NCBI RefSeq assembly: GCF_007120195.1
Contig: NZ_SKOG01000066.1
Span: 1 to 33,610, forward strand
Direction of reading: 5' to 3'
Length of the DNA stretch: 33,610 nucleotides
Source: Aquisalimonas sp.
GTDB lineage: Bacteria > Pseudomonadota > Gammaproteobacteria > Nitrococcales > Aquisalimonadaceae
Below are positions 3,286 to 25,480 of the stretch, piece by piece. Below the pieces are notes generated by a model. That model ran no database searches, was not told the DNA's origin, and saw nothing but the letters and a program-made list of their open reading frames with translations. How positions within the stretch are numbered: the first letter of the stretch is position 1; each line of letters opens with the position of its first letter. The position numbers and the translations under genes were made by a program.

Positions 3286-4857
3286 ATGGACTCGAGGGGA
3301 TGGAGGATGGCCTTGATCGACGAGACGAACGCTTGGCCAGCTCCCATGGAGGGGTCTCACGATACCGCACTCCTCCAAGCACTCATGGATGACTCCGGTC
3401 TGCTGGTAATCGTCGTGGATCGGAATAGCCGAATTCAGCACTTCAATGGCGAATGCCAGCGCGTGACGGGGTTCACGGCCAACGAGGTTATTGGTGAGCC
3501 TGTCGAGACAGTCCTCAGCAACCCCGAGGCGCCATCTGGCACTCCGACCAATCCGCCTTCCGGTGACTCCACCGAAGAACACCCCGGGCTCTTGCTCACA
3601 CGCTCCGGCGCGGGGCGGCCCGTGTGTTGGCGCTACAAGGCATTGCGGGATGAAGCCGGGAGTAGTCACCGCAGTGTGATTATGGGGACATGTATTGACA
3701 CGGGCGTGCAGCCGGCCGCGGAGGAAGGTGCGTTTCGCGATCACCAGATTGCCCAGACCACCATCGACAACGCCCTCGACGGCATCATCACCGTCGACGA
3801 CGCGGGAGTCATTCGCTCAGCGAACCCGGCCGCAGAACAAATATTCGGGTACCAGGCTCCGGAAATGTACGGCCACAATATCAGCATGCTCATGCCGGAG
3901 CCCCATGTTAGCCATCATGATGACTACATCCGTCGCTACCTGGAGACCGGTGAACGCCGGATCATTGGCATCGGCCGTGAGCTCACCGGACGCCATCGCG
4001 ATGGCAGCCTGATCGAGCTGCACCTGGCTATAGCGGAAGGCTTTGCTCATGGGCAACGATACTTTGTCGGCTTCACCCATGACATTGGGCCCCGCAAGCG
4101 GGCGGAACGAGAAGCCCGCCAGCACCTTGCTCAGTTGGCGCGAACCACCCGCATCTATGCCATGGATGCACTGGCCTCGAGTCTTGCCCATGAAATTCGT
4201 CAACCACTCACCGCTGTCTATACGACGGCGCAGGCCTGCCTTATCCTTCTCGACACCGATCAGCAGGAACCGGCTACGCTCAAAGAGTCCCTACGGCAGA
4301 TTACCCGACAAGCGCGCCGCGCCAGCGAAATAACCGACCAACTGCATCATTTCGTGCAGCAAGGGGAAACAAACGAACTGGCCGAACACGACTGCCTGGC
4401 ACTGATAGACGACGTGCTGCTACTGCTGGCGCACAAACTCCACGAGGCGGGCGTATGGCCGGAACGGCATTATAATAACCTCAGCCAATGTGGAACAAAG
4501 ATTAACCGTGTCCTGATCGAGCAGGTAGTGTTCAATCTGATCGACAATGCCATCGATGCCATGCGGGAGACGGCCCCCCCACGGGTGGTTACCGCCGCAG
4601 CCTGTCTCAGTGCTTGCGGCTCATGGTGCGAGATCGAGATCCTGGATACAGGGCCAGGGATTCCCGAAGAACACCTGAGCAAACTGTTCACCCCGTATTT
4701 CACCACCAAGCCCCATGGGACAGGGCAAGGTCTTGCGCTGAGCAAGTCCATCGTCGAGAAACACGGCGGTCAACTGAGCGCACGGAATCCGCCTGCGGGT
4801 GGTGCAGCATTTCGCTTGACTCTGCCACTTGACCAAAAGTGCAGGGGCCATGCGTAA
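3286..4857 (+). CDS. fixL: FixL-like heme-PAS sensor histidine kinase (start may be 3307)
   Basis: FixL PAS signature MPEPHVSHHDDYIRRYLETGERRIIGIGRELTGRHRDGS; H-box SSLAHEIRQPLTAVYT; ATPase motifs FNLIDNAIDAM, DTGPGIPEEHLSKLFTPYFTTK. Confidence 0.88.
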   Translation: MDSRGWRMALIDETNAWPAPMEGSHDTALLQALMDDSGLLVIVVDRNSRIQHFNGECQRVTGFTANEVIGEPVETVLSNPEAPSGTPTNPPSGDSTEEHPGLLLTRSGAGRPVCWRYKALRDEAGSSHRSVIMGTCIDTGVQPAAEEGAFRDHQIAQTTIDNALDGIITVDDAGVIRSANPAAEQIFGYQAPEMYGHNISMLMPEPHVSHHDDYIRRYLETGERRIIGIGRELTGRHRDGSLIELHLAIAEGFAHGQRYFVGFTHDIGPRKRAEREARQHLAQLARTTRIYAMDALASSLAHEIRQPLTAVYTTAQACLILLDTDQQEPATLKESLRQITRQARRASEITDQLHHFVQQGETNELAEHDCLALIDDVLLLLAHKLHEAGVWPERHYNNLSQCGTKINRVLIEQVVFNLIDNAIDAMRETAPPRVVTAAACLSACGSWCEIEILDTGPGIPEEHLSKLFTPYFTTKPHGTGQGLALSKSIVEKHGGQLSARNPPAGGAAFRLTLPLDQKCRGHA

Positions 4858-4981
4858 CTCTATACCGTCTGTATTCATTGTCGATGATGATGTGGCCATT
4901 CCGGAAAGCTTGTCCCTTATCTCTCGGCGCCGGAGTTCATTTACCTCGCGGACATACTCAACCGATAGCCACGTAACGTGA
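4850..4981 (+). pseudogene. truncated FixJ-like response regulator (N-terminus only)
   Basis: MRNSIPSVFIVDDDVAIPESLSLISRR... overlaps the fixL stop by 8 nt, matches the N-terminus of the FixJ at 10511-11134, then ends after 43 aa. Confidence 0.8.
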
Positions 4982-5059: not shown

Positions 5060-5437
5060 ATGGCGAATCCCGTCGTTTACGTTGTCGAGGACGATGAGGC
5101 CGTACGCAATGCTTTGGCGCTATTGATCTGCTCTCAGGGCTGGGAGGTTCGGGTCTTCGATTCCGCCTCCGCATTCCTTGAAGCGGGGCTGCCTCCGAAA
5201 GAATCTCTCCCATGCCTGCTCCTGGATCTGGACCTTGGCGACATGAACGGCGCCGAGTTGCAGGAATACCTTCAGGCCCAAGAGCACAACCTCCCGACCA
5301 TCGTCGTAACCGCGAAGCCCGATCACTCACTTGCCCGGCGAGCCAGCGACGCGGGCGCCAGAGCCGTGGTGAGCAAACCGTTCGAGGCGACCGATCTGAT
5401 TCGGGAAATCGAGCAGGCTCTACGACCGGCGTCGTGA
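5060..5437 (+). CDS. stand-alone response-regulator receiver domain protein
   Basis: YVVEDDEAVRNALALLI, LLLDLDLGDMNG (phosphoacceptor Asp), VVSKPFEA; no output domain. Confidence 0.88.
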   Translation: MANPVVYVVEDDEAVRNALALLICSQGWEVRVFDSASAFLEAGLPPKESLPCLLLDLDLGDMNGAELQEYLQAQEHNLPTIVVTAKPDHSLARRASDAGARAVVSKPFEATDLIREIEQALRPAS

Positions 5438-5448
5438 GGCCAGCACGG

Positions 5449-6081
5449 TTACTGATCGCTCGACTCCGCGAGGATGGACACCACCTGGTCATCGGTGACC
5501 TGATCGAATTGACGGAAGAACTGGCCCACGGCCTGGAACGTCTGCGGTGTCAGCGGGCAGACCACCTCGTCGGCCTCGGCGCGCAGCCGCTCGCAGGCGT
5601 CCGGCGGCGCCACGCCCACGGCGGCGATTAAACGCGCGGGGCCCTGGGCACGAACGGCTCTCAGTGCGGCAAGCATGGTCGAGCCCGTGGCGATACCATC
5701 ATCCACCACGATGACAATGCGACCGCCGGGATCGATGGCCTCGCGTACCGGGGTATATCTCTGGCGGCGCTCGCGAATGGTCTGCAGCTGCTTTTTCGCC
5801 TCGTGGCGCAGATAGTCTTCGTCGATGCCCATCCGGCGGGCGTGATCGGCCACGTGCACGCTCCCGTCCTCGCTGACCGCCCCTACCGCAAACTCCGGGT
5901 TCCCCGGGGCGCCCAGCTTGTGCGCCAGGACCACGTCCAGCTCGCCGTCCAGTGCCCGGGCGATATACGCCGCCATGGGTGCGGCGCCCCGCGGAATGGC
6001 CAGCACCAGCGGATTCTGCCCCTGATACGCTGCCAGTTCCCGCGCCAGGCTTTCGGCAGCCTCTTCCCGGTCCTTGTACAT
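5449..6081 (-). CDS. phosphoribosyltransferase family protein
   Basis: MYKDREEAAESLARELA.. and PRPP-binding motif IVIVVDDGIATGSTMLAALRAVR; start trimmed to internal Met. Confidence 0.88.
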   Translation of the reverse strand: MYKDREEAAESLARELAAYQGQNPLVLAIPRGAAPMAAYIARALDGELDVVLAHKLGAPGNPEFAVGAVSEDGSVHVADHARRMGIDEDYLRHEAKKQLQTIRERRQRYTPVREAIDPGGRIVIVVDDGIATGSTMLAALRAVRAQGPARLIAAVGVAPPDACERLRAEADEVVCPLTPQTFQAVGQFFRQFDQVTDDQVVSILAESSDQ

Positions 6082-6227
6082 CTCGAAGCCCTCCTCAACA
6101 GCCAGTACTCCACCCGCGAGGCGGTCCCGCAATGCCCTTCGCGGCGTCACTCCATTCAAGCGCCACTGCAGCCACGGTCAACCCATCACGCAGTTGCCAA
6201 GATAGCAAGCGTGCTGGCACCTGTGTT

Positions 6228-6241
6228 TTGATCGAAATCAT
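6228..6241. promoter_or_regulatory. putative FNR/FixK box
   Basis: TTGATCGAAATCAT, 9/10 match to TTGATNNNNATCAA, 28 bp before the nrdJ ATG. Confidence 0.45.
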
Positions 6242-6268
6242 CGAAGCGAGCGACAAACGAGTGCCGCG

Positions 6269-8116
6269 ATGGCTACAAGCGATTGGTTGGAAACCGACAT
6301 CGCCCGCCACATTTGGGCGACCAAGTACCGGTATCAACCTCATGGGCAAGCTGGCGAAGCGGGCATCGAAGCCAGCTGGCGCCGCATTGCCGAGGCGTTA
6401 TCGGCCCCAGAGGCCGACGCCAGCCACTGGTGCACCCGGTTTCAGAAAGCTCTCAAGGGGTTTCGGTTTCTACCGGGTGGGCGCATCCAGGCTGGCGCCG
6501 GAACCGACCGCGACGTAACCCTGTTCAACTGCTTCGTCATGGGTGTCGTCGAGGACGACATGGCGTGCATCTTCAACCACCTCAAGGAAGCGGCCCTGAC
6601 CATGCAGCGCGGCGGCGGGATCGGTTGTGATTTCTCCACCCTGCGCCCTGCGGGAACGGTTGCCCACGGCAGCGGCACGATTGCCTCGGGGCCCGTGTCG
6701 TTCATGCGGATCTGGGACAGCATGTGCGCCACGATCCTGTCCACCGGGGCGCGGCGTGGAGCGATGATGGCAACGCTGCGCTGTGATCACCCGGACATCG
6801 AAACATTCATCGACACCAAGAGCCAAGCTGGGGAGCTGACACGCTTCAACGTCTCCGTGCAGGTGACGGACGCATTCATGGAGGCGGTGGAGAACAACGC
6901 TGACTGGGCCCTGGTATTCCCTGAAGAGGCACTGGACGGCCCGGCTGAGGGAACATGCGTATACCGGCAGTGGACCGGGCAACAACAGCCGGTACCCTGC
7001 CGCATCCTCCGCTGGGTTCCCGCTCGTGAGCTCTGGGAGCGCATCATGCGCGCCACTTACAACTACGCGGAACCCGGCGTGCTCTTCGTTGACAGGGTGA
7101 ACCACTGGAACAATCTCGGCGATCGCGAGCACATCACGGCGACCAACCCCTGTGGTGAAATCCCGCTACCGCCCTATGGCGCCTGTGATCTGGGCTCGAT
7201 CAATCTGACCTGCTTCGTGCGGGCGCCTTTCACCAAGCATGCACGGCTGGATTGGCAAGGACTGGAGGCCATAACCGCCACGGCAACCAGAATGCTGGAC
7301 AACGTGATCGACGTGTCCCGATTCCCGCTCCCCCAACAGGCCGAGCGCGTCCGGGGCGACCGGCGCATCGGCCTCGGGATCACCGGTCTGGGCGATGCCC
7401 TCATCATGCTGGGCCTGCATTACGCCAGCGACGACGCCAGGGCTACCGCGGCCAAGGTGATGCGAACGATCTGCCTGAGCGCCTATGGCACCTCCGTCGA
7501 TCTCGCTCGCACCAAGGGCGCCTTCCTCCAGTTCCACGCGCCGGCCTACCTGGCGCGTCCCTTTGTGCAGGGCCTGCCTGACGATATCCGCGACGGTATC
7601 GCCCGCCATGGCATGCGCAACAGTCATCTCATTGCCATCGCGCCCAGCGGCACCATCAGCCTGCTGGCCGGTAACATCTCCAGCGGCATAGAGCCGGTCT
7701 ACCAGTTCCGACAACAGCGCTGGGTGCTGGACGCCGAGGCGCGCCGCCAGAGCTTCGAACTGACTGACTATGCCTACCGCCTCTGGCGCCAGAGGCATCC
7801 TGACGCCATGCTGCCGGCATATTTCGTGGACGCACTGCAGGTGGAGCCAGAGGCTCATCTCGCCATGGAGGCGGCGCTGCAACCCTGGGTGGACAACGCC
7901 ATATCCAAGACCATCAACGTGCCCCAAGCGTATTCCTTCGAAGCCTTTCGCGATCTCTACAAACGGGCCTATGCGCTGGGCCTGAAGGGCTGTACAACCT
8001 ATCGTGTCAACGCGGTGAGGGGTGCGGTACTGACGCCGTCGGGCGAAGCGTCAGGCGGGGACAGCGACCCGCAGCCCGAGCCACATTGCTGCAACGTCGA
8101 GCGTGAAGCGGATTAA
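6269..8116 (+). CDS. nrdJ: adenosylcobalamin-dependent (class II) ribonucleoside-diphosphate reductase
   Basis: 615 aa; MQRGGGIGCDFSTLRP, NPCGEIPLPPYGACDLGSINLTCF, GIEPVYQF, LKGCTTYR motifs of NrdJ. Confidence 0.92.
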   Translation: MATSDWLETDIARHIWATKYRYQPHGQAGEAGIEASWRRIAEALSAPEADASHWCTRFQKALKGFRFLPGGRIQAGAGTDRDVTLFNCFVMGVVEDDMACIFNHLKEAALTMQRGGGIGCDFSTLRPAGTVAHGSGTIASGPVSFMRIWDSMCATILSTGARRGAMMATLRCDHPDIETFIDTKSQAGELTRFNVSVQVTDAFMEAVENNADWALVFPEEALDGPAEGTCVYRQWTGQQQPVPCRILRWVPARELWERIMRATYNYAEPGVLFVDRVNHWNNLGDREHITATNPCGEIPLPPYGACDLGSINLTCFVRAPFTKHARLDWQGLEAITATATRMLDNVIDVSRFPLPQQAERVRGDRRIGLGITGLGDALIMLGLHYASDDARATAAKVMRTICLSAYGTSVDLARTKGAFLQFHAPAYLARPFVQGLPDDIRDGIARHGMRNSHLIAIAPSGTISLLAGNISSGIEPVYQFRQQRWVLDAEARRQSFELTDYAYRLWRQRHPDAMLPAYFVDALQVEPEAHLAMEAALQPWVDNAISKTINVPQAYSFEAFRDLYKRAYALGLKGCTTYRVNAVRGAVLTPSGEASGGDSDPQPEPHCCNVEREAD

Positions 8117-8277
8117 CCACCAACTGGAGTCCAGTCATGACAGCAGGCCACGAGAAGACGTCATTATTAGTGCGACCGGGAGGCCGCGCTGAACGGCGAT
8201 CTGACGGTGCCCGATGGGGCCAGTGGATTTGCAGGTCCATCCTGCGCCGCGGGAGGAAACCATATTGCAGAGCATGC

Positions 8278-8751
8278 TTACGCGAAGCCCGGCGGATTCC
8301 ACTCGTCCATCATCCGGCGGCGCGCGGCCTCCAGGCGCTCAGACATGAGGCCGGAGAACTTCTTCAGCACCGCATAACCGAACGCCGGATCTTCCTCGCA
8401 ATGCGACAGGACGGCGGCGCCGTCGAATTCCAGGATTTCCGTATTCGTTTCGGCACGGGCCTGGAACGTCCATTCGTATGGCGGGATGAGCCACGACCAG
8501 CCCACGACCTGTCCCTGGCCCAAGCGCTGAATTTCCAGTGAGGGGCCTGAAATCGCTGGGATCTCGATGAGGATCTCACCGCTTAGCACGAGGTAAAACG
8601 CGTCCGCCCCGTCACCTTGACGGAACAACACATTACCTTTCGGGACCAATTGCGTCGTAGCGCAACCGCTTAGGTACTGGATCACCGTTTCATCGAGATC
8701 CGAGAAAAATGAGTGCTGCTGTAGCTGCGCGGTAATGTCGGGGTTCGTCAT
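8278..8751 (-). CDS. stand-alone cyclic nucleotide-binding (cNMP) domain protein, no HTH
   Basis: GNVLFRQGDGADAFYLVLSGEILIE, VVGWSWLIPPYEW; 157 aa; same family as 15663-16133. Confidence 0.85.
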   Translation of the reverse strand: MTNPDITAQLQQHSFFSDLDETVIQYLSGCATTQLVPKGNVLFRQGDGADAFYLVLSGEILIEIPAISGPSLEIQRLGQGQVVGWSWLIPPYEWTFQARAETNTEILEFDGAAVLSHCEEDPAFGYAVLKKFSGLMSERLEAARRRMMDEWNPPGFA

Positions 8752-8787
8752 GGCATGGCTCCTGATTCTACGTGCGTTCTTTCCCGG

Positions 8788-8928
8788 TCAAAGCTCGGCC
8801 CAGTCCACGCAGGCAAGGAGCCGGGAGCGTTGATGCTGGGGTTCATTGCGGGCGATCTCCTCCAGGCAGGCCTCGCACATACCAAAGCGTTGTATCCACT
8901 TGAAGTCGCTCGTCTCCGGCTGCTGCAT
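8788..8928 (-). CDS. small hypothetical protein (46 aa)
   Basis: MQQPETSDFKWIQRFGMCEACLEEIARNEPQHQRSRLLACVDWAEL; lies 36 bp upstream of the CNB gene, same strand; contains CxxC. Confidence 0.35.
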   Translation of the reverse strand: MQQPETSDFKWIQRFGMCEACLEEIARNEPQHQRSRLLACVDWAEL

Positions 8929-8991
8929 CGTCCATCATGGGCGCAGTCCTGCCACAGCGCATTGGTTCCGGGCGCAAGTATCGGTCATGAA

Positions 8992-10146
8992 CTAACTGAC
9001 CCGCCGGTAGCCGCCCACGAGGCCGCGCTTGGACAGCACCAGCTGCCAGAGCTGCACCTGCCGGGCGCGGAACATACCAGCGCAGCTTAGCAGGTAGTAG
9101 CGCCACATGCGGTAGAAGCGGTCGCCGTAGCGGTCCCGGAAGCGCGGCCAGGCGGCCTCGAAGTTCCGGTGCCAAGCCATGAGTGTGTGGTCGTAATCAG
9201 CGCCGAAGTTGTGGAGGTCCTCGATCACGGCCAGATCCTCCGCGGCATCGCTAATCTGCACCAACGCCGGGAGGTCCCCGTTTCGGAAGATGTACTTGTC
9301 GAGCCAGGGGTCTGGTGCGGCGACGCGCTTGTTCTTGCCGATGGTGTGCAGCATGCATAGCCCATCATCACTGAGGCAGCGATGGACGGTTTCCATGAAC
9401 GTGCGGTGATTCTTCCGCCCCACGTGCTCCAAGATGCCGATACCAACGACGCGGTCGAAGGTCTCGTCTAACTCGCGGTAGTCCTGGAACCGAAACTCCA
9501 CGGGCAGTCCCTGGCAGCGCTCGCTGCCCAGCCGCACCTGCTCTTGGGAGATGGTCAGCCCCACGCACTCCACCCCGTAGTGCTCGGCGGCGTATTCCAT
9601 AAAGCTGCCCCAGCCGCAACCGATGTCGAGCACGCGCATGCCCGACTGCAGGGCGAGCTTGCGGCAGATCAAGTCCAGCTTTGCCCCCTGGGCGTCGTCC
9701 AAATTGTCGGCGTTGCGCCAGTAGCCGCTAGTGTAGGTCATGCGCCGGTCCAGCATGGCCTCGTAGAAGTCGTTGCCCAGGTCGTAGTGGGCCTCCCCCA
9801 CCTGCCGGGCGCGGCGAAGGCTCTGGAGGTTGAGCAGTCGCGCGCGCAGGGAGTGGAAAATCAGCCGCAGCGGTTGGAACTGTTCCTGGATCCCGGACCG
9901 CAGCAGGCGGTAGAAGAACTCGTCCAGCTGTTCAACATCCCAGTCGCCGTCCATGTACGCTTCACCCAGCCCGAGGTTGCCGTAGGCCAGGGCGCGCTCG
10001 GGGGCGTTGTCGGCGTGGAGCTGGATGTCCCAGGGGCGGTCACCGTTGACGCGGATGTCCGCCCGTTCCAGCAGGTCTTGCATGAGAGGGTCCAGGCCAC
10101 TGCCGTGACGTTGTGGGCGCAGCCGTGTACTGGTGTTGACTGCCAT
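8992..10146 (-). CDS. cfa: cyclopropane-fatty-acyl-phospholipid synthase
   Basis: AHYDLGNDFYEAMLDRRMTYTSGYW, VLDIGCGWGSFMEYAAEHYGVECVGLTIS, HTIGKNK; start set at MAVNTSTRLRPQ. Confidence 0.93.
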   Translation of the reverse strand: MAVNTSTRLRPQRHGSGLDPLMQDLLERADIRVNGDRPWDIQLHADNAPERALAYGNLGLGEAYMDGDWDVEQLDEFFYRLLRSGIQEQFQPLRLIFHSLRARLLNLQSLRRARQVGEAHYDLGNDFYEAMLDRRMTYTSGYWRNADNLDDAQGAKLDLICRKLALQSGMRVLDIGCGWGSFMEYAAEHYGVECVGLTISQEQVRLGSERCQGLPVEFRFQDYRELDETFDRVVGIGILEHVGRKNHRTFMETVHRCLSDDGLCMLHTIGKNKRVAAPDPWLDKYIFRNGDLPALVQISDAAEDLAVIEDLHNFGADYDHTLMAWHRNFEAAWPRFRDRYGDRFYRMWRYYLLSCAGMFRARQVQLWQLVLSKRGLVGGYRRVS

Positions 10147-10170
10147 GGCAACCTCCAATGTATGAGGCTT

Positions 10171-10208
10171 TGGTATTTGCCCACCGCCGTGGTATTTGCC
10201 CACCGCCG
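10171..10208. repeat. perfect 19-bp tandem repeat x2 upstream of cfa
   Basis: tggtatttgcccaccgccg repeated twice back to back. Confidence 0.95.
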
Positions 10209-10258
10209 TGTTACTGGAGGTGTATTAACGGGCATAGTGTCGCGCCTGGGTTTTACTG

Positions 10259-10330
10259 TCATGCGTTTCCGTAGGCAATGCGCCGCAAATTTGCCCGGTC
10301 AACAACCACGATGTGCTTACCTTTGGCTTG
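10259..10330 (-). pseudogene. remnant of Fnr/FixK-like regulator (C-terminal ~22 codons)
   Basis: Minus strand reads AKGKHIVVVDRANLRRIAYGNA*, matching ...NENHIVVLDPADLRRIANGNA* of the intact copy; the shared upstream sequence gaaatgaggggatccccgta follows. Confidence 0.85.
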
Positions 10331-10510
10331 CACAGTATCGTGGTGAAGAGACACCTAGAAATGAGGGGATCCCCGTAATAGCGGGATCGACAGCGCGCTT
10401 CGTACGGCTTCGTCGTCATCGACAACAATCGGATTCGCCACCTTCTCCAGCCCCCTGTCCTCGGCTGTCCAAAGCGTGGACGGAGCCTTCGGACGCGTCA
10501 GTGAAGGCGG

Positions 10511-11134
10511 TCATGTCTTGCGTATCGATGATTCCCCGAGGAGCCGGTCCCAGCAGCGGACGAGTTCTGCCGCGGAGCGCAGGCCCAGCTTCCGCATGGC
10601 ACGACCGCGATGGACTTCCACCGTGCGCTCGCTGATCCCGAGTTCCAGGCCGATCACCATGTTCGTCTTCCCGGCGGCGGCGAATCTGGCCACCTCGAGT
10701 TCTCGTGCGCTCAGCGCGGGAAGACCACGCCGGAATGCCTTGTCCCGCTCGTCGCTCGAGAGCTGCTGTTCATGCCGCTTGATGGCGTCCCACACGCACT
10801 TGACGAGCTCATTCGTTTCGAAGCCCGGTTTTTGCAGGAAATCCGTCGCCCCCCGCTGGACCGCCCGTACCGCCGTTGGTACGTCGGCTTTTCCGGTAAG
10901 GAAAATGACGGGAACCCACCAGCCTTGCGCCTGCATTCGTTCCTGGACCTCGATGCCGTCCATCCCCGGCATTTTCAGGTCCAGCAGGACGCACGCAGGC
11001 TCCTCTGGTGCTTCCGTCGCCAGAAACGCCCTGCCGTCGGCAAAGGTACGGGGGTGCAGCCCGGCCAACCGGAAAAGCAGGGACAGGCTCTCCCGAATGC
11101 TGGCATCATCGTCGACGATGAATACGGTCGGCAT
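10511..11134 (-). CDS. fixJ: FixJ-like response regulator (receiver + LuxR-type HTH)
   Basis: MPTVFIVDDDASIRESLSLLFRLAG, LLDLKMPGMDGIEV, PALSARELEVARFAAAGKTNMVIGLELGISERTVEVHRGRAMRKLG. Confidence 0.9.
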   Translation of the reverse strand: MPTVFIVDDDASIRESLSLLFRLAGLHPRTFADGRAFLATEAPEEPACVLLDLKMPGMDGIEVQERMQAQGWWVPVIFLTGKADVPTAVRAVQRGATDFLQKPGFETNELVKCVWDAIKRHEQQLSSDERDKAFRRGLPALSARELEVARFAAAGKTNMVIGLELGISERTVEVHRGRAMRKLGLRSAAELVRCWDRLLGESSIRKT

Positions 11135-11194
11135 TTCCCAGCCCAGACCACTCATCACGCAGTTGCGGCAGAATGAACCGGAATGCGGCACCCC

Positions 11195-11545
11195 CTACCG
11201 GGACGCTGCTCCGCTGCAATTTTGTCTATCGTGCCTCTCGACAATGGCGCGGCACAACGGCAGGCGCTGGCCCATTCCGGAGAATCTGGTGGTGAAATAC
11301 GGGGTAAAGAGGGAGTCGGCCTGCCCTTCGGGACGCCCCGGGCCGGCATCCAGAACCGCGATCTCGCACCACGAACGAGTGACGTAGGCGCACGTCACCA
11401 CCGTACAACACACGCTGTCCTTCCACCTACTTCATGGCGCCGAGGGCGTTGTCGATCAGGTTGTATATCGTCTGCTCGATCTGCGCCCGATTGACCCGGA
11501 TACGACACTCGCGGTCCGCATAGCGGCGCTCCACGGTCACGCCGG
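11195..11545 (-). pseudogene. truncated, frameshifted FixL-like kinase (ATPase region only)
   Basis: AGVTVERRYADRECRIRVNRAQIEQTIYNLIDNALGAMK* then SWCEIAVLDAGPGRPEGQADSLFTPYFTTRFSGMGQRL; aligns with the ATPase region of fixL at 3286-4857. Confidence 0.85.
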
Positions 11546-11797
11546 CTTATCCGATGAGGATATGGTTCGAGAGGCAGCGCTCTTTAGTATATACGAATCA
11601 AGCTAACATACGCCTTGAAGGCGTCACAGACAAGAGGGGACGCATAAAGGCAAGCAGACGTTCCGCTGGGTTACGGGTCATGCGGGGTGAGCCTGGAAAG
11701 TGCGACCCAGAGGAGTATCCGGAGAAATCGATGGGGGTCGTTCAGGAAATAGACGCAGCCCGCCATGTCGATAGCAGGCCGCTACGCTTCAATCGAT

Positions 11798-12301
11798 TCA
11801 CTTTACCTCGACGCGCCGGCGATGGGATTCCTTGCGCTTCGGTAGCGTGAGCTCAAGAATACCGTCGCTGAACTTCGCCGAGGCACTGTCGGCATCCACC
11901 GCTCCTGGGAGTGCCACGGTTCGCGTGAAGGAGCCCTGGGCGATTTCCCGGCGATAATAGTCGCTATCCTCGTCCTCGCTTTCACGCCGGCTCTGCCCCT
12001 TGACGGTGACCGTGTGCTCGTTCACGGAAACATCAAGATCCTTGCGTTCGATGCCCGGCAGCTCGGCACGCACCAGGATTTCCTTTTCACGGTCAACGAC
12101 ATCGACTTTTGGTGGCCGCGACGGGGCACTTGCCAGCACCGCGTCCCACAGCGGGAACTCCGCCAGCATCGAGCGCCGCGGCCCCCCGAAGAATCGATCG
12201 AAGAGTTGTTCGACGTCCTCCAAAGGGTTCATGCCACGTGCCGTGGACACCGGTTTACGCGCCTCCGGGCTCGGGGTGGATTTCTGCGGGGTGTTGGCCA
12301 T
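11798..12301 (-). CDS. Hsp20/alpha-crystallin small heat-shock protein
   Basis: PKVDVVDREKEILVRAELPGIERKDLDVSVNEHTVTVKGQSR...FTRTVALPGAVDADSASAKFSDGILELTLPK. Confidence 0.93.
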   Translation of the reverse strand: MANTPQKSTPSPEARKPVSTARGMNPLEDVEQLFDRFFGGPRRSMLAEFPLWDAVLASAPSRPPKVDVVDREKEILVRAELPGIERKDLDVSVNEHTVTVKGQSRRESEDEDSDYYRREIAQGSFTRTVALPGAVDADSASAKFSDGILELTLPKRKESHRRRVEVK

Positions 12302-12420
12302 GGAAAAAGCCTCCGTCTCGGGGAGTCAGGGTCAGCTAAGCAGTGAAGAAGGCGATGCCCCGCCGACCGTCAAGGGCAATCGCCACGACATCAGCCTATA
12401 CCCGGCATCCCGCCATGGCG

Positions 12421-12434
12421 TTGATACTTGTCAA
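12421..12434. promoter_or_regulatory. putative FNR/FixK box
   Basis: TTGATACTTGTCAA (reverse complement TTGACAAGTATCAA), 9/10 match, 120 bp upstream of the hsp20 start. Confidence 0.45.
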
Positions 12435-12444
12435 CTGACGCCGG

Positions 12445-12639
12445 ATTTCCGGGGACCCAGCCCCAGGTTGCCGTGGCCAAGGCGCGCTCGGGGACGTCGC
12501 CGGCGTGGAGCTGGATGTCCCAGGGACGGTCACCGTTGACGCGGATGTCCGCCCGTTCCAGCAGATCCTGCATGAGACGGTCCAGGCCACTGCCCGTGCG
12601 GCTTGGGTGCGCAGACGGATCATGGCGTTGGCCGACATG
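12445..12639 (-). pseudogene. cfa 5' remnant (N-terminal ~65 codons, frameshifted)
   Basis: MQDLLERADIRVNGDRPWDIQLHAGDVPERALA matches the cfa N-terminus; near-identical DNA to 9973-10150 including gacatggcaacctcca at the start codon. Confidence 0.88.
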
Positions 12640-12683
12640 GCAACCTCCACCACGGTGCAGTGCAACCTGATCCAGCGTTTCCG

Positions 12684-13379
12684 TTACGCGTTGCCGTTGG
12701 CAATGCGTCGCAGATCGGCCGGATCGAGAACCACAATATGGTTCTCATTCATTTTCAGGATGTGCTTTTTGCGCAGACTGCCGAAAGCACGAGACAGGGT
12801 CTCCGCAGCAATACCCAGATAGTGCGCCAGATCCCGGCGTCCGAACGGCAGCAGAAACTCCTGCTCCTTGCATCCGCGTTGGGCCTGCTGGTCACCGTAG
12901 TGAACGAGAAAACGGGCGAGCCTGGCCTGCGCTGACCCACGGTTCATCTCCAGAACCTGCGCGGACAGCGACAGCTCGCGATAGAATCCCATCAAAATCG
13001 TCTCGGTAATGCCAAGCATCCCAGGCCCCCCTTCAACCGGCCCCTGCTCCGTCATTTTCCAGACTTTCGCCGTATCGACGGCGACGATCGAAGACACCGC
13101 TCCGCGTCGAGCCAACCCCTCGAAACCAAGCACGTCACCGGTAGAATACAACCTCATCACCCGTTCGAAACCGTCCTCATCGGTGTTGTACCCCTTGAGG
13201 GCACCCGTGATGACCATGTAAGGCCCCGCGATGCTATCTCCGGCGTGGTAGAGATGCTCGCCCTTGGCCAGAACGCGGCCGGTGTACCCCGTTTGCGTGC
13301 CAGCCGTCCCGCGGGAGCGAATCGGCGAAGAAAGCGGGAGGGGTGTGTTGATCGGGATGACGTGTCCGTGCATCTGCAT
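12684..13379 (-). CDS. Crp/Fnr-family regulator, FixK-like (no N-terminal Fe-S cysteines)
   Basis: cNMP fold ..GEHLYHAGDSIAGPYMVITGALK..; HTH FGRRDLAHYLGIAAETLSRAFGSLRKK with ExxSR recognition motif; start MQMHGHVIPIN preceded by aggagag. Confidence 0.9.
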   Translation of the reverse strand: MQMHGHVIPINTPLPLSSPIRSRGTAGTQTGYTGRVLAKGEHLYHAGDSIAGPYMVITGALKGYNTDEDGFERVMRLYSTGDVLGFEGLARRGAVSSIVAVDTAKVWKMTEQGPVEGGPGMLGITETILMGFYRELSLSAQVLEMNRGSAQARLARFLVHYGDQQAQRGCKEQEFLLPFGRRDLAHYLGIAAETLSRAFGSLRKKHILKMNENHIVVLDPADLRRIANGNA

Positions 13380-13515
13380 TCTCTCCTGTTGGCCCATGGA
13401 CTCACGGCGAGACCAATGTCCGTTCACTGCCGGTAAGTGTAGTGGCGGAGAGATGCCTCGAAATGAGGGGATCCCCGTACTGGGATGGACGCAGGACAGG
13501 CAAACGGGGCCACGA

Positions 13516-13983
13516 TTAGCGGATGCGGTATCGATGCAATCCGGCATCGACGTCATCAATGAAAATTCTTGCCCTGGCTGTCGGGGGCTCGGTGACGTAG
13601 ATCACCCCCACGAACAGCGCCGTGGCCAGAACCAGGCTCCAGATCCCCACCGGCGCGCCCAGGGGGAGAAAAACAACCACGGCAGGGTCAGGGGCCGACA
13701 CCGGGGCCGCCAGAACGAAACCGAGGGCCACCAGGCTCGTGACGAGCATGATCGCCACCTGCAGAACGTCCGTCCACAGGACTGAGCGCAGCCGTTATAC
13801 CCGCTGTCCCCGAAGTACGTAGTCGATGGCGGTAATCGCCGCAATGGCGAATAGCCTTTAGAAAAGGAACGGACCCAGTAACGCGTCAACTCCCCGGAGC
13901 AGCGCGTACGGCACCACAAAGGCCGCAACCACCAGTACCGCCAACACGACCAGTCCGTGGATGCTACGCCCGGTGTCATTCAT
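13516..13983 (-). pseudogene. small multi-TM membrane protein gene with two in-frame TAA stops
   Basis: Single frame reads MNDTGRSIHGLVVLAVLVVAAFVVPYALLRGVDALLGPFLF*RLFAIAAITAIDYVLRGQRV*RLRSVLWTDVLQVAIMLVTSLVALGFVLAAPVSAPDPAVVVFLPLGAPVG... Confidence 0.65.
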
Positions 13984-14147
13984 GGACACGCGACCTCCTT
14001 GCTGTCGCGGCAGTGCTTATCGCACGACAGTAACCGGACATCGAACGCCATCGGGGATTCGACCATTGACTCCCCCTCACGGGTATCGAGGCCCATCGCA
14101 CGGTGAATCAGGCCGCCCGCTCATAGGGCCGCTGACCCTCTCCTTGC

Positions 14148-14161
14148 TTGATCCTGGTCAA
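14148..14161. promoter_or_regulatory. putative FNR/FixK box upstream of hydrogenase operon
   Basis: TTGATCCTGGTCAA, 9/10 match to TTGATNNNNATCAA; centre about 40 bp before a TSS predicted from TACGAT (14183-14188). Confidence 0.5.
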
Positions 14162-24528: not shown

Positions 24529-24903
24529 TCAAGGCGCCTGAAATGCTCCAGGTCGACCAGGTTCTACTGCCAGGGTGTCCCAGTGTTGTTCGTTTCGCCC
24601 ACACCAATGGTCTGCTCGCTCCCGAACTGCCAGAGGGCCAAGTCTTTACCACCAATGGCGGCCATAACTGGTAGGGCTGGTTCCCGCCCTGGCGCATGAT
24701 GCCCAACTCCCGGGCGCCCGCGCCTGGTTGCGCTCGCCTGTTGACGTTTCGTTCATGTTTGCGATCTTATTCATAATGTCGGCGTCTTTGCCGGCATGAA
24801 CATAAACGCCGGGGACGACCGTTCTCGCCGACCTTTCCCGGATCTTCTCTCCACTCTCGTCGCTCTCGACACCGTATCTTGGTCGGTGCCTACACTATAG
24901 TGG

Positions 24904-25440
24904 TGCGCCTTCGGCGCGGTTTGTTTGACGGTGCATTACGCTGGCGCTAATGCCACCCTACGCGCTGGGATCAGGGTCGTTGGCATGCGCGCGCTACGTG
25001 CCGGAGTCCCGCAGGTCGACAGTGGCCTCGACCGCACCCTGCGGTCCGGCAAACCTTCTGACTTAGATGATCGGCAGCTGTCGTTCCAGGCCCCCGCCAG
25101 GACTTCGCGGCGGCGAGACGGCGGGCACCCCGTCGCCGGCGACCACGGTGAATTTTGGGGCATCGCTGTGGTGCTTGCCGTCGAAGCGCGTCCCAATCTC
25201 GAAGGTGTCGACGAAGGCCATGCCATCGCTAAAATGCTTGTGCATGAAAGGTTTTGTCGTTGACGCGCTTGATCTCGCTGTCGAGTATAGTCGATGGAAA
25301 CCCGCTTCTCGTCCCGTGAGACAATGACACTGCGCTCGCCGGCGCCATCGGACTGCCTTCGATTTGACCTGCGGATCCGGGCCCAGGGCGGACAGCCGTG
25401 CGATAAAATCCAGCGGTTCGAAGATCACAGGCGTGGTGCC
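24904..25440. repeat. degenerate repeat R2 (direct copy of 2541-2830, with ~247 bp extra at 25065-25311)
   Basis: Shares both halves with R1; includes imperfect palindrome ggtgcattacgctggcgctaatgccacc (24930-24957). Confidence 0.85.
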
Positions 25441-25480
25441 ATTGCGTTCGTCGGTCTGGCCTGACGGGACCCAGGCAACT
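25063..25480 (-). pseudogene. IS91-family transposase-like C-terminal fragment joined to frameshifted unknown coding debris
   Basis: ERNGTTPVIFEPLDFIARLSALGPDP; then GAGERSVIVSRDEKRVSIDY / LDSEIKRVNDKTFHAQAF / SDGMAFVDTFEIGTRFDGKHHSDAPKFTVVAGDGVP in successive frames. Confidence 0.6.

Follow-up and report, generated by a model that had tools for sequence, protein, structure and literature searches.

Complementary remnants of a five-gene fixL-fixJ-RR-fixK-cfa block in an Aquisalimonas genome point to a probable tandem duplication with random loss

Described systems closest to the locus

Tandem duplication-random loss (TDRL) is known for the gene order of animal mitochondria, for example in trnI-trnQ-trnM, where a trnM remnant is found (PMC4860592). 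Here we describe a locus for which TDRL is the closest known model, in this case in a bacterial chromosome. It lies in Aquisalimonas sp. (assembly GCF_007120195.1) on contig NZ_SKOG01000066.1, which was analysed at its full length of 33,610 nucleotides and is called the window in what follows. Five genes (fixL, fixJ, a stand-alone receiver gene called RR, fixK and cfa) are found there once intact and once as a remnant, or scar. The locus resembles the mitochondrial cases in what would be a head-to-tail duplicated block, in complementary loss, in a changed order and in pseudogene remnants at the predicted place, and the ancestral contiguous order is found in relatives for fixL-fixJ-RR-fixK, cfa excepted. 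Unlike them, it concerns a five-gene protein-coding regulatory block of a bacterial chromosome in which all five scars are readable and in which an inversion would have followed.

The genes recall the rhizobial FixL-FixJ-FixK cascade of B. japonicum and S. meliloti, with which they share a predicted heme-PAS FixL, a FixJ response regulator, a FixK without Fe-S cysteines and a FixJ-type palindrome before fixK. The window differs in its host, which belongs to the halophilic Gammaproteobacteria, in containing no nitrogen-fixation genes, in the extra RR between fixJ and fixK, and in the operator, which reads TA[AC]GGGGATCCCCTYA as compared with TAAGTAATTTCCCTTA, the FixJ site of S. meliloti (PMC4999443).

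We regard the locus as a variant of a known process and not as a new kind of system, namely a probable tandem duplication with random loss in a bacterium, all scars of which are legible, together with what is plausibly a FixJ operator and may be a captured promoter. In bacteria, tandem duplications usually revert through recombination, which is why the steps from a duplication to a new order can rarely be followed. Comparison of this one locus with its relatives allows the ancestral order, both decayed copies, the order that resulted and a candidate by-product in regulation to be traced, making it an unusually readable fossil of duplication and gene loss reshuffling bacterial gene order in a salt-loving host. 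Reciprocal gene loss after duplication was reportedly described in polyploid yeasts by Scannell and colleagues in 2006 (cited in PMC11105162); as there, each copy keeps what the other lost, but the loss took place within one bacterial locus and not between species after genome duplication.

Five genes, each with a collinear scar

On the plus strand the order is fixL (3286-4857), fixJ scar (4862-4927) and RR (5060-5437). Followed leftwards, the minus strand has fixK (12684-13379), the cfa scar (12455-12641), an hsp20 gene (11798-12301; PF00011, 1.4e-21), the fixL scar (11167-11549), fixJ (10511-11134), the RR scar (10385-10441), a flank shared with the region upstream of intact fixK, the fixK scar (10262-10318) and cfa (8992-10146). 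All five genes (5/5) are present once intact and once as a scar, at collinear places that define two copies, with hsp20 between them. Copy X retains fixJ and cfa intact, its fixL, RR and fixK being reduced to scars, and copy Y retains fixL, RR and fixK, with scars of fixJ and cfa. As they stand, fixK-cfa' and fixL'-fixJ-RR'-fixK'-cfa (a prime denotes a scar) are directly oriented, and fixL-fixJ'-RR becomes so only once the inversion proposed below is undone.

The intact genes were assigned by domain and family searches. The fixL product is a putative heme-PAS oxygen-sensor histidine kinase (NCBIfam sens_FixL_Rhizob, 1.6e-87, below the curated cut-off), and fixJ matches NCBIfam FixJ (2.1e-51, also below cut-off) and is 62% identical in amino acids to the fixJ of G004, one of the relatives named within the genus, all of them Aquisalimonas metagenome-assembled genomes (MAGs). 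RR has a receiver domain (PF00072, 1.8e-21), and relatives have it at the same place between fixJ and fixK. The 384-codon cfa is above cut-off for cyclopropane fatty acyl phospholipid synthase (NF008686, 4.9e-178) and shows 90% amino acid identity to the cfa of G001. The gene at 12684-13379 encodes a Crp/Fnr regulator (PF13545 and PF00027) that occupies the position of fixK in the block of relatives. It had been called fnr before, a name that we reject as its product lacks the N-terminal Fe-S cysteine cluster, C170 being its only cysteine; judged from these residues, the regulator is of the FixK-like kind, as opposed to an Fe-S FNR.

When the window was compared with itself, the 5' part of cfa (9964-10157) aligned with 12455-12649 at 87%, the 3' end of fixK (10263-10318) with 12688-12743 at 77%, and the flank upstream of fixK (10334-10391) with 13436-13490 at 79%, and these three matches are mutually collinear. 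The cfa scar holds the first ~62 codons, with a frameshift near its end, at 85-87% identity across ~187 nt (blastn 87%, E 9e-64). The fixK scar consists of the last ~18 codons and the stop, reads KHIVVVDRANLRRIAYGNA* and is 77% identical to the 3'-terminal 56 nt of intact fixK. Only the first ~22 codons of fixJ are left in copy Y (56 nt at 79% to the fixJ start; tblastn 68% in amino acids, E 6e-5), and the RR scar, between fixJ and the flank, corresponds to the first ~19 codons (tblastn VANPIV--VDDDEAVRSALSI, E 0.001). The fixL scar is a broken remnant of the ATPase third of the gene; it is longer than the first blastn match and extends over ~11549-11167, and the FixL of G004 matches it by tblastn at 11186-11543 in two frames with internal stops (E 5e-27). 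Local-alignment scores were judged against 200 dinucleotide shuffles, the highest of which were exceeded in every case: 259 against 31 for cfa, 47 against 24 for the regulator tail, 57 against 25 for the flank, 71 against 30 for fixL (11167-11374), 52 against 27 for fixJ and 45 against 32 for RR. All five scars, being above the shuffles and at collinear positions, count for a two-copy block.

An earlier note on this DNA had described part of this arrangement, and its intact cfa, regulator remnant with the peptide, shared flank, intact regulator and cut, frameshifted cfa were all recovered at the same positions; the RR scar (10441-10385) had been missed. The collinear similarity does not end with those segments and continues through the five genes, and nothing in the relatives points to an independent origin of the remnants, in agreement with the duplication of a larger redox-response block that had been suggested: the fixLJ case and the cfa-regulator case belong to one structure. 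The loss is partitioned as claimed, each gene being intact in one copy and a scar in the other. However, five independent random losses give a mosaic in 30/32 cases, so that the mosaic says nothing of selection or subfunctionalisation, and selection for the partition was rejected as unneeded.

By tblastn of the window proteins on relatives' contigs, fixL-fixJ-RR-fixK was found contiguous in at least seven other genomes. It lies on one strand in four MAGs labelled Ectothiorhodospiraceae (G013, G005, G009 and G011), and the same order occurs in a Natronospira MAG, in Halospina denitrificans and in a Halomonas MAG (L115, L116 and L119). The fixK genes of the relatives were found with an alignment query of the contigs, a query with the single regulator giving none, and plasmid records gave only distant Crp/Fnr matches, near 30% identity. 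In G004 the order is fixK-phaB-phasin-fixL-fixJ-RR (phaB and phasin were named by eye), spanning two contigs with an exact 121 nt overlap. A contig binned to a Halobacteriales archaeon MAG (L109, SKQO01000140.1), most likely by misbinning, carries an Aquisalimonas-like fixK-fixL-fixJ-RR permuted as in G004, with an apparent phaB remnant in between. We also considered hsp20 as an ancestral member of the block, as G005 and G011 have an hsp20 after fixK, and dropped it because those proteins are 34-37% identical to that of the window as against 46% for the hsp20 of a stress operon in G004.

Proposed history and its rivals

What is observed, namely homologous scars in collinear order, relatives with the ancestral block, and the operator with its position, is best explained as a whole by a duplicated block, mosaic loss, an inversion, a surviving cascade and a promoter left before cfa, to which we give a probability of roughly three in four. 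The fixL-fixJ-RR-fixK-cfa block would have come to exist twice, head to tail, after which deletions would have taken every redundant gene out of one of the two copies, with scars remaining where they bordered on the neighbours that were kept. An inversion of ~8 kb (about 5438-13490), with breakpoints between the RR stop and the fixK operator, would have split copy Y and put its left half on the plus strand, with all else on the minus strand. From the gene orders, the left breakpoint would fall at 5438-5449, between the RR stop and a convergent phosphoribosyltransferase gene, and the right one at 13480-13510, with the fixK operator on one side and a decayed transporter-like fragment on the other.

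With the inversion undone, the order becomes fixL-fixJ'-RR-operator-fixK-cfa'-hsp20-fixL'-fixJ-RR'-operator-fixK'-cfa, a direct tandem in which every piece is used once without overlap. The RR stop then lies at most a few tens of nt from the fixK operator (this distance is ~20 nt in G005, G009 and G011 and longer in G013), and nrdJ points against the block, as does the nrdJ downstream of the block in G013. Immediately upstream of the fixK operator, broken transporter-like frames (~13510-13999, minus strand) come to an end, which is what a joint left by a rearrangement should look like.

Several points weigh against this history. The RR scar is short, and gene order is what the inversion is deduced from. 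Similarity past the block edges was sought upstream of fixL, downstream of cfa, around hsp20 and in the RR-operator gap and none was found. The contiguous cfa-fnr-fixJ-fixL block that the earlier note had proposed to look for in relatives was found only in its regulatory part: cfa adjoins fixK in no relative seen, so its inclusion would be specific to this lineage. Furthermore, the first 143 residues of the window cfa are 89% identical to the cfa of G001 as compared with 74% to the syntenic cfa of this same genome (contig C92), so that at least the cfa part may be imported. Finally, the concatenated fixL-RR-fixK scars of copy X form a trichotomy with the window genes and G004, with no supported pairing.

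The second copy could have come from a tandem duplication within the lineage or from import of a related block. In the latter case the copies would be xenologs, a related fixLJ-RR-fixK-cfa block from an Aquisalimonas-like species having integrated beside the resident one, for example by single crossover, which likewise yields a direct tandem, before mosaic loss. We consider this unlikely, although several data are in its favour: besides the affinity of the window cfa to that of G001, scar and intact partner are only ~60-87% identical, and their mismatches are most frequent at third codon positions (56/197, against 55/396 for the other two, P 3e-5), which means that after their divergence the two copies both went on encoding proteins for some of the time. 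In addition, a decayed second fixK with an operator of its own is present in G002, on a contig with a cNMP-binding gene homologous to the one downstream of the block in the window (8278-8751). However, for fixJ, RR, fixK and the fixL core no relative is as similar to either window copy as the two copies are to one another, the tree groups the two cfa copies together to the exclusion of G001 (93% support), and neither a donor nor a mobile element could be identified at the joints. Identity comparisons favour a within-lineage origin for most elements. The output of tblastx of the G002 and G004 contigs against the window was mostly linked low-score noise, and only its leading matches were used.

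An older duplication, before the radiation of the genus, would make the order of G004 and the related contig another product of the same tandem duplication-random loss, and that order is in fact the exact circular permutation expected from losing the outer genes of the tandem. The fixL scar of copy X is also slightly closer over 380 nt to the fixL of G004 (62.4%) than to that of the window (59.5%). Nevertheless the fixK scar is 75% identical to the window fixK, whereas G004 is at 54% and 63% to either, with the promoters behaving likewise, the tree support is negligible (10/36), and a simple translocation of fixK would also explain the G004 order, for which reasons we find such an age improbable. 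Unrelated fragments that arose independently, an assembly artefact or a chimera of two strains are more improbable by far. The genome is a draft of 292 contigs and the window is one whole contig, but five collinear scars, each adjoining the correct neighbour, are not expected by chance, and a strain chimera would yield two near-identical intact copies instead of remnants at 60-87% identity.

Elsewhere in these genomes (G001, G003, G004 and contig C92 of the present genome), the neighbour of cfa is a crotonase gene; on C92 a further cfa, cut by the contig end, occupies this genus-conserved place (G000:C92:2733-3164, L080); the window cfa is not a recent copy of it. G003, which belongs to the same genus, has a fragmentary fixK-like gene next to a distant member of the cfa family (L085, 8465-8795; G003:C1, ~1878465-1878795). 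In the window itself, direct repeats at 2537-2834 and 24900-25442 (85-94% identity, the second with an insertion of ~240 nt) flank fixLJ, nrdJ and the hydrogenase region; their conceptual translation has no Pfam match, and they look like remnants of a decayed element.

The fixK operator, the predicted cascade and the promoter before cfa

The flank GAAATGAGGGGATCCCCGTA is found at 10358-10377 and 13460-13479, and its 13-mer core GGGGATCCCCGTA occurs at those two sites only in the whole 4.05 Mb genome. It contains a 16-bp palindrome, TACGGGGATCCCCTCA, at 13464-13479 before fixK and, in copy X, at 10362-10377, both on the minus strand, and either this sequence or TAAGGGGATCCCCTTA stands upstream of fixK in every relative looked at. 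The flank is indeed shared by both copies, as noted before, and it is more than a flank, being the conserved operator of the fixK promoter and not an incidental spacer. When 14 genomes of the family were scanned for TAMGGGGATCCCC, it was present in 7/7 of those with this type of fixK and in 0/7 of the others, and the reversed pattern, used as a control, had zero matches in the 14. One of the seven without an operator, G012, has fixL-fixJ-RR on a short contig, and its assembly may simply lack the rest of the block.

The palindrome is centred at -41.5 or -42.5 relative to a -10-like hexamer in all intact cases, including the fixK of all relatives checked; in the window the hexamers are TACACT (13436-13441) for fixK and GATACT (10334-10339) in copy X, each 22 nt after the box on the minus strand. 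This is the usual place for an activator overlapping the -35 region. The operator has the same length as the S. meliloti FixJ site and matches it in 11/16 bases, and we predict FixJ as its likely ligand. The locus would then provide a likely FixJ operator for halophilic Gammaproteobacteria, for which a narrow literature search found no paper.

In the proposed cascade, FixL from copy Y would phosphorylate FixJ from copy X, and FixJ would activate fixK of copy Y at the -41.5 operator. The FixL sequence combines PAS and kinase domains with the H-box AHEIRQPL, and its second PAS aligns to the heme-PAS structures 1dp6/8js5 of B. japonicum FixL with the HD-YI motif kept, in which the aligned histidine is presumably the heme ligand; it has the features of a heme-type PAS, and heme binding is predicted. 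FixJ has a receiver and a LuxR-type HTH domain (PF00072 and PF00196). The surviving genes of both copies should still form one working cascade, and FixK may activate nearby hypoxia genes (a hydrogenase operon, hsp20 and nrdJ). Exact FNR/FixK-type boxes (TTGATNNNNRTCAA) occur twice in the window, TTGATACTTGTCAA upstream of hsp20 (12421-12434, plus strand) and TTGATCCTGGTCAA upstream of a sulfhydrogenase-type hydrogenase operon (14148-14161, plus strand), and a box with 1 mismatch (6228-6241, plus strand) precedes nrdJ by ~27 nt. The genome has ~20 exact boxes, with one match for a control pattern; two in the window exceed the 0.17 expected (P about 0.012), which counts for the proposed history, but the box count of the window was reached by 18/100 of its own shuffles and is not significant on that measure, which counts against it.

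In copy X the operator and promoter may have outlived the deletion of fixK. The operator and the next 4 nt are identical to copy Y (20/20), as compared with 26/38 in the remaining aligned flank; given that background, a perfect 20/20 has a probability of 0.0005 to 0.005. The spacing from operator to -10 is intact and, with fixK gone, ~190 nt separate the promoter from cfa downstream, an interval in which no terminator-like site was seen on the cfa strand. These features suggest promoter capture by cfa as the simplest reading of copy X, in which transcription from this promoter would now run into cfa. More tentatively, the deletion of fixK would have fused a FixJ-activated promoter to cfa, with random loss bringing a membrane-lipid gene under first-tier control in the response to oxygen and selection keeping the operator, a fuller account that we put below even odds. 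The cfa leader also contains a short tandem repeat (TTTGCCCACCGCCGTGGTA twice, 10180-10216), between the fixK scar and cfa.

A fixK-type operator was also seen in G004 (C22, ~7497; L105), at -41.5 before an apparent stress operon whose first gene is followed by a UspA-like gene, hsp20 and groEL. By comparison with G002, where LonB-like and UspA-like genes lie beside the decayed fixK (C312, L104), this first gene tentatively encodes a LonB-like protease.

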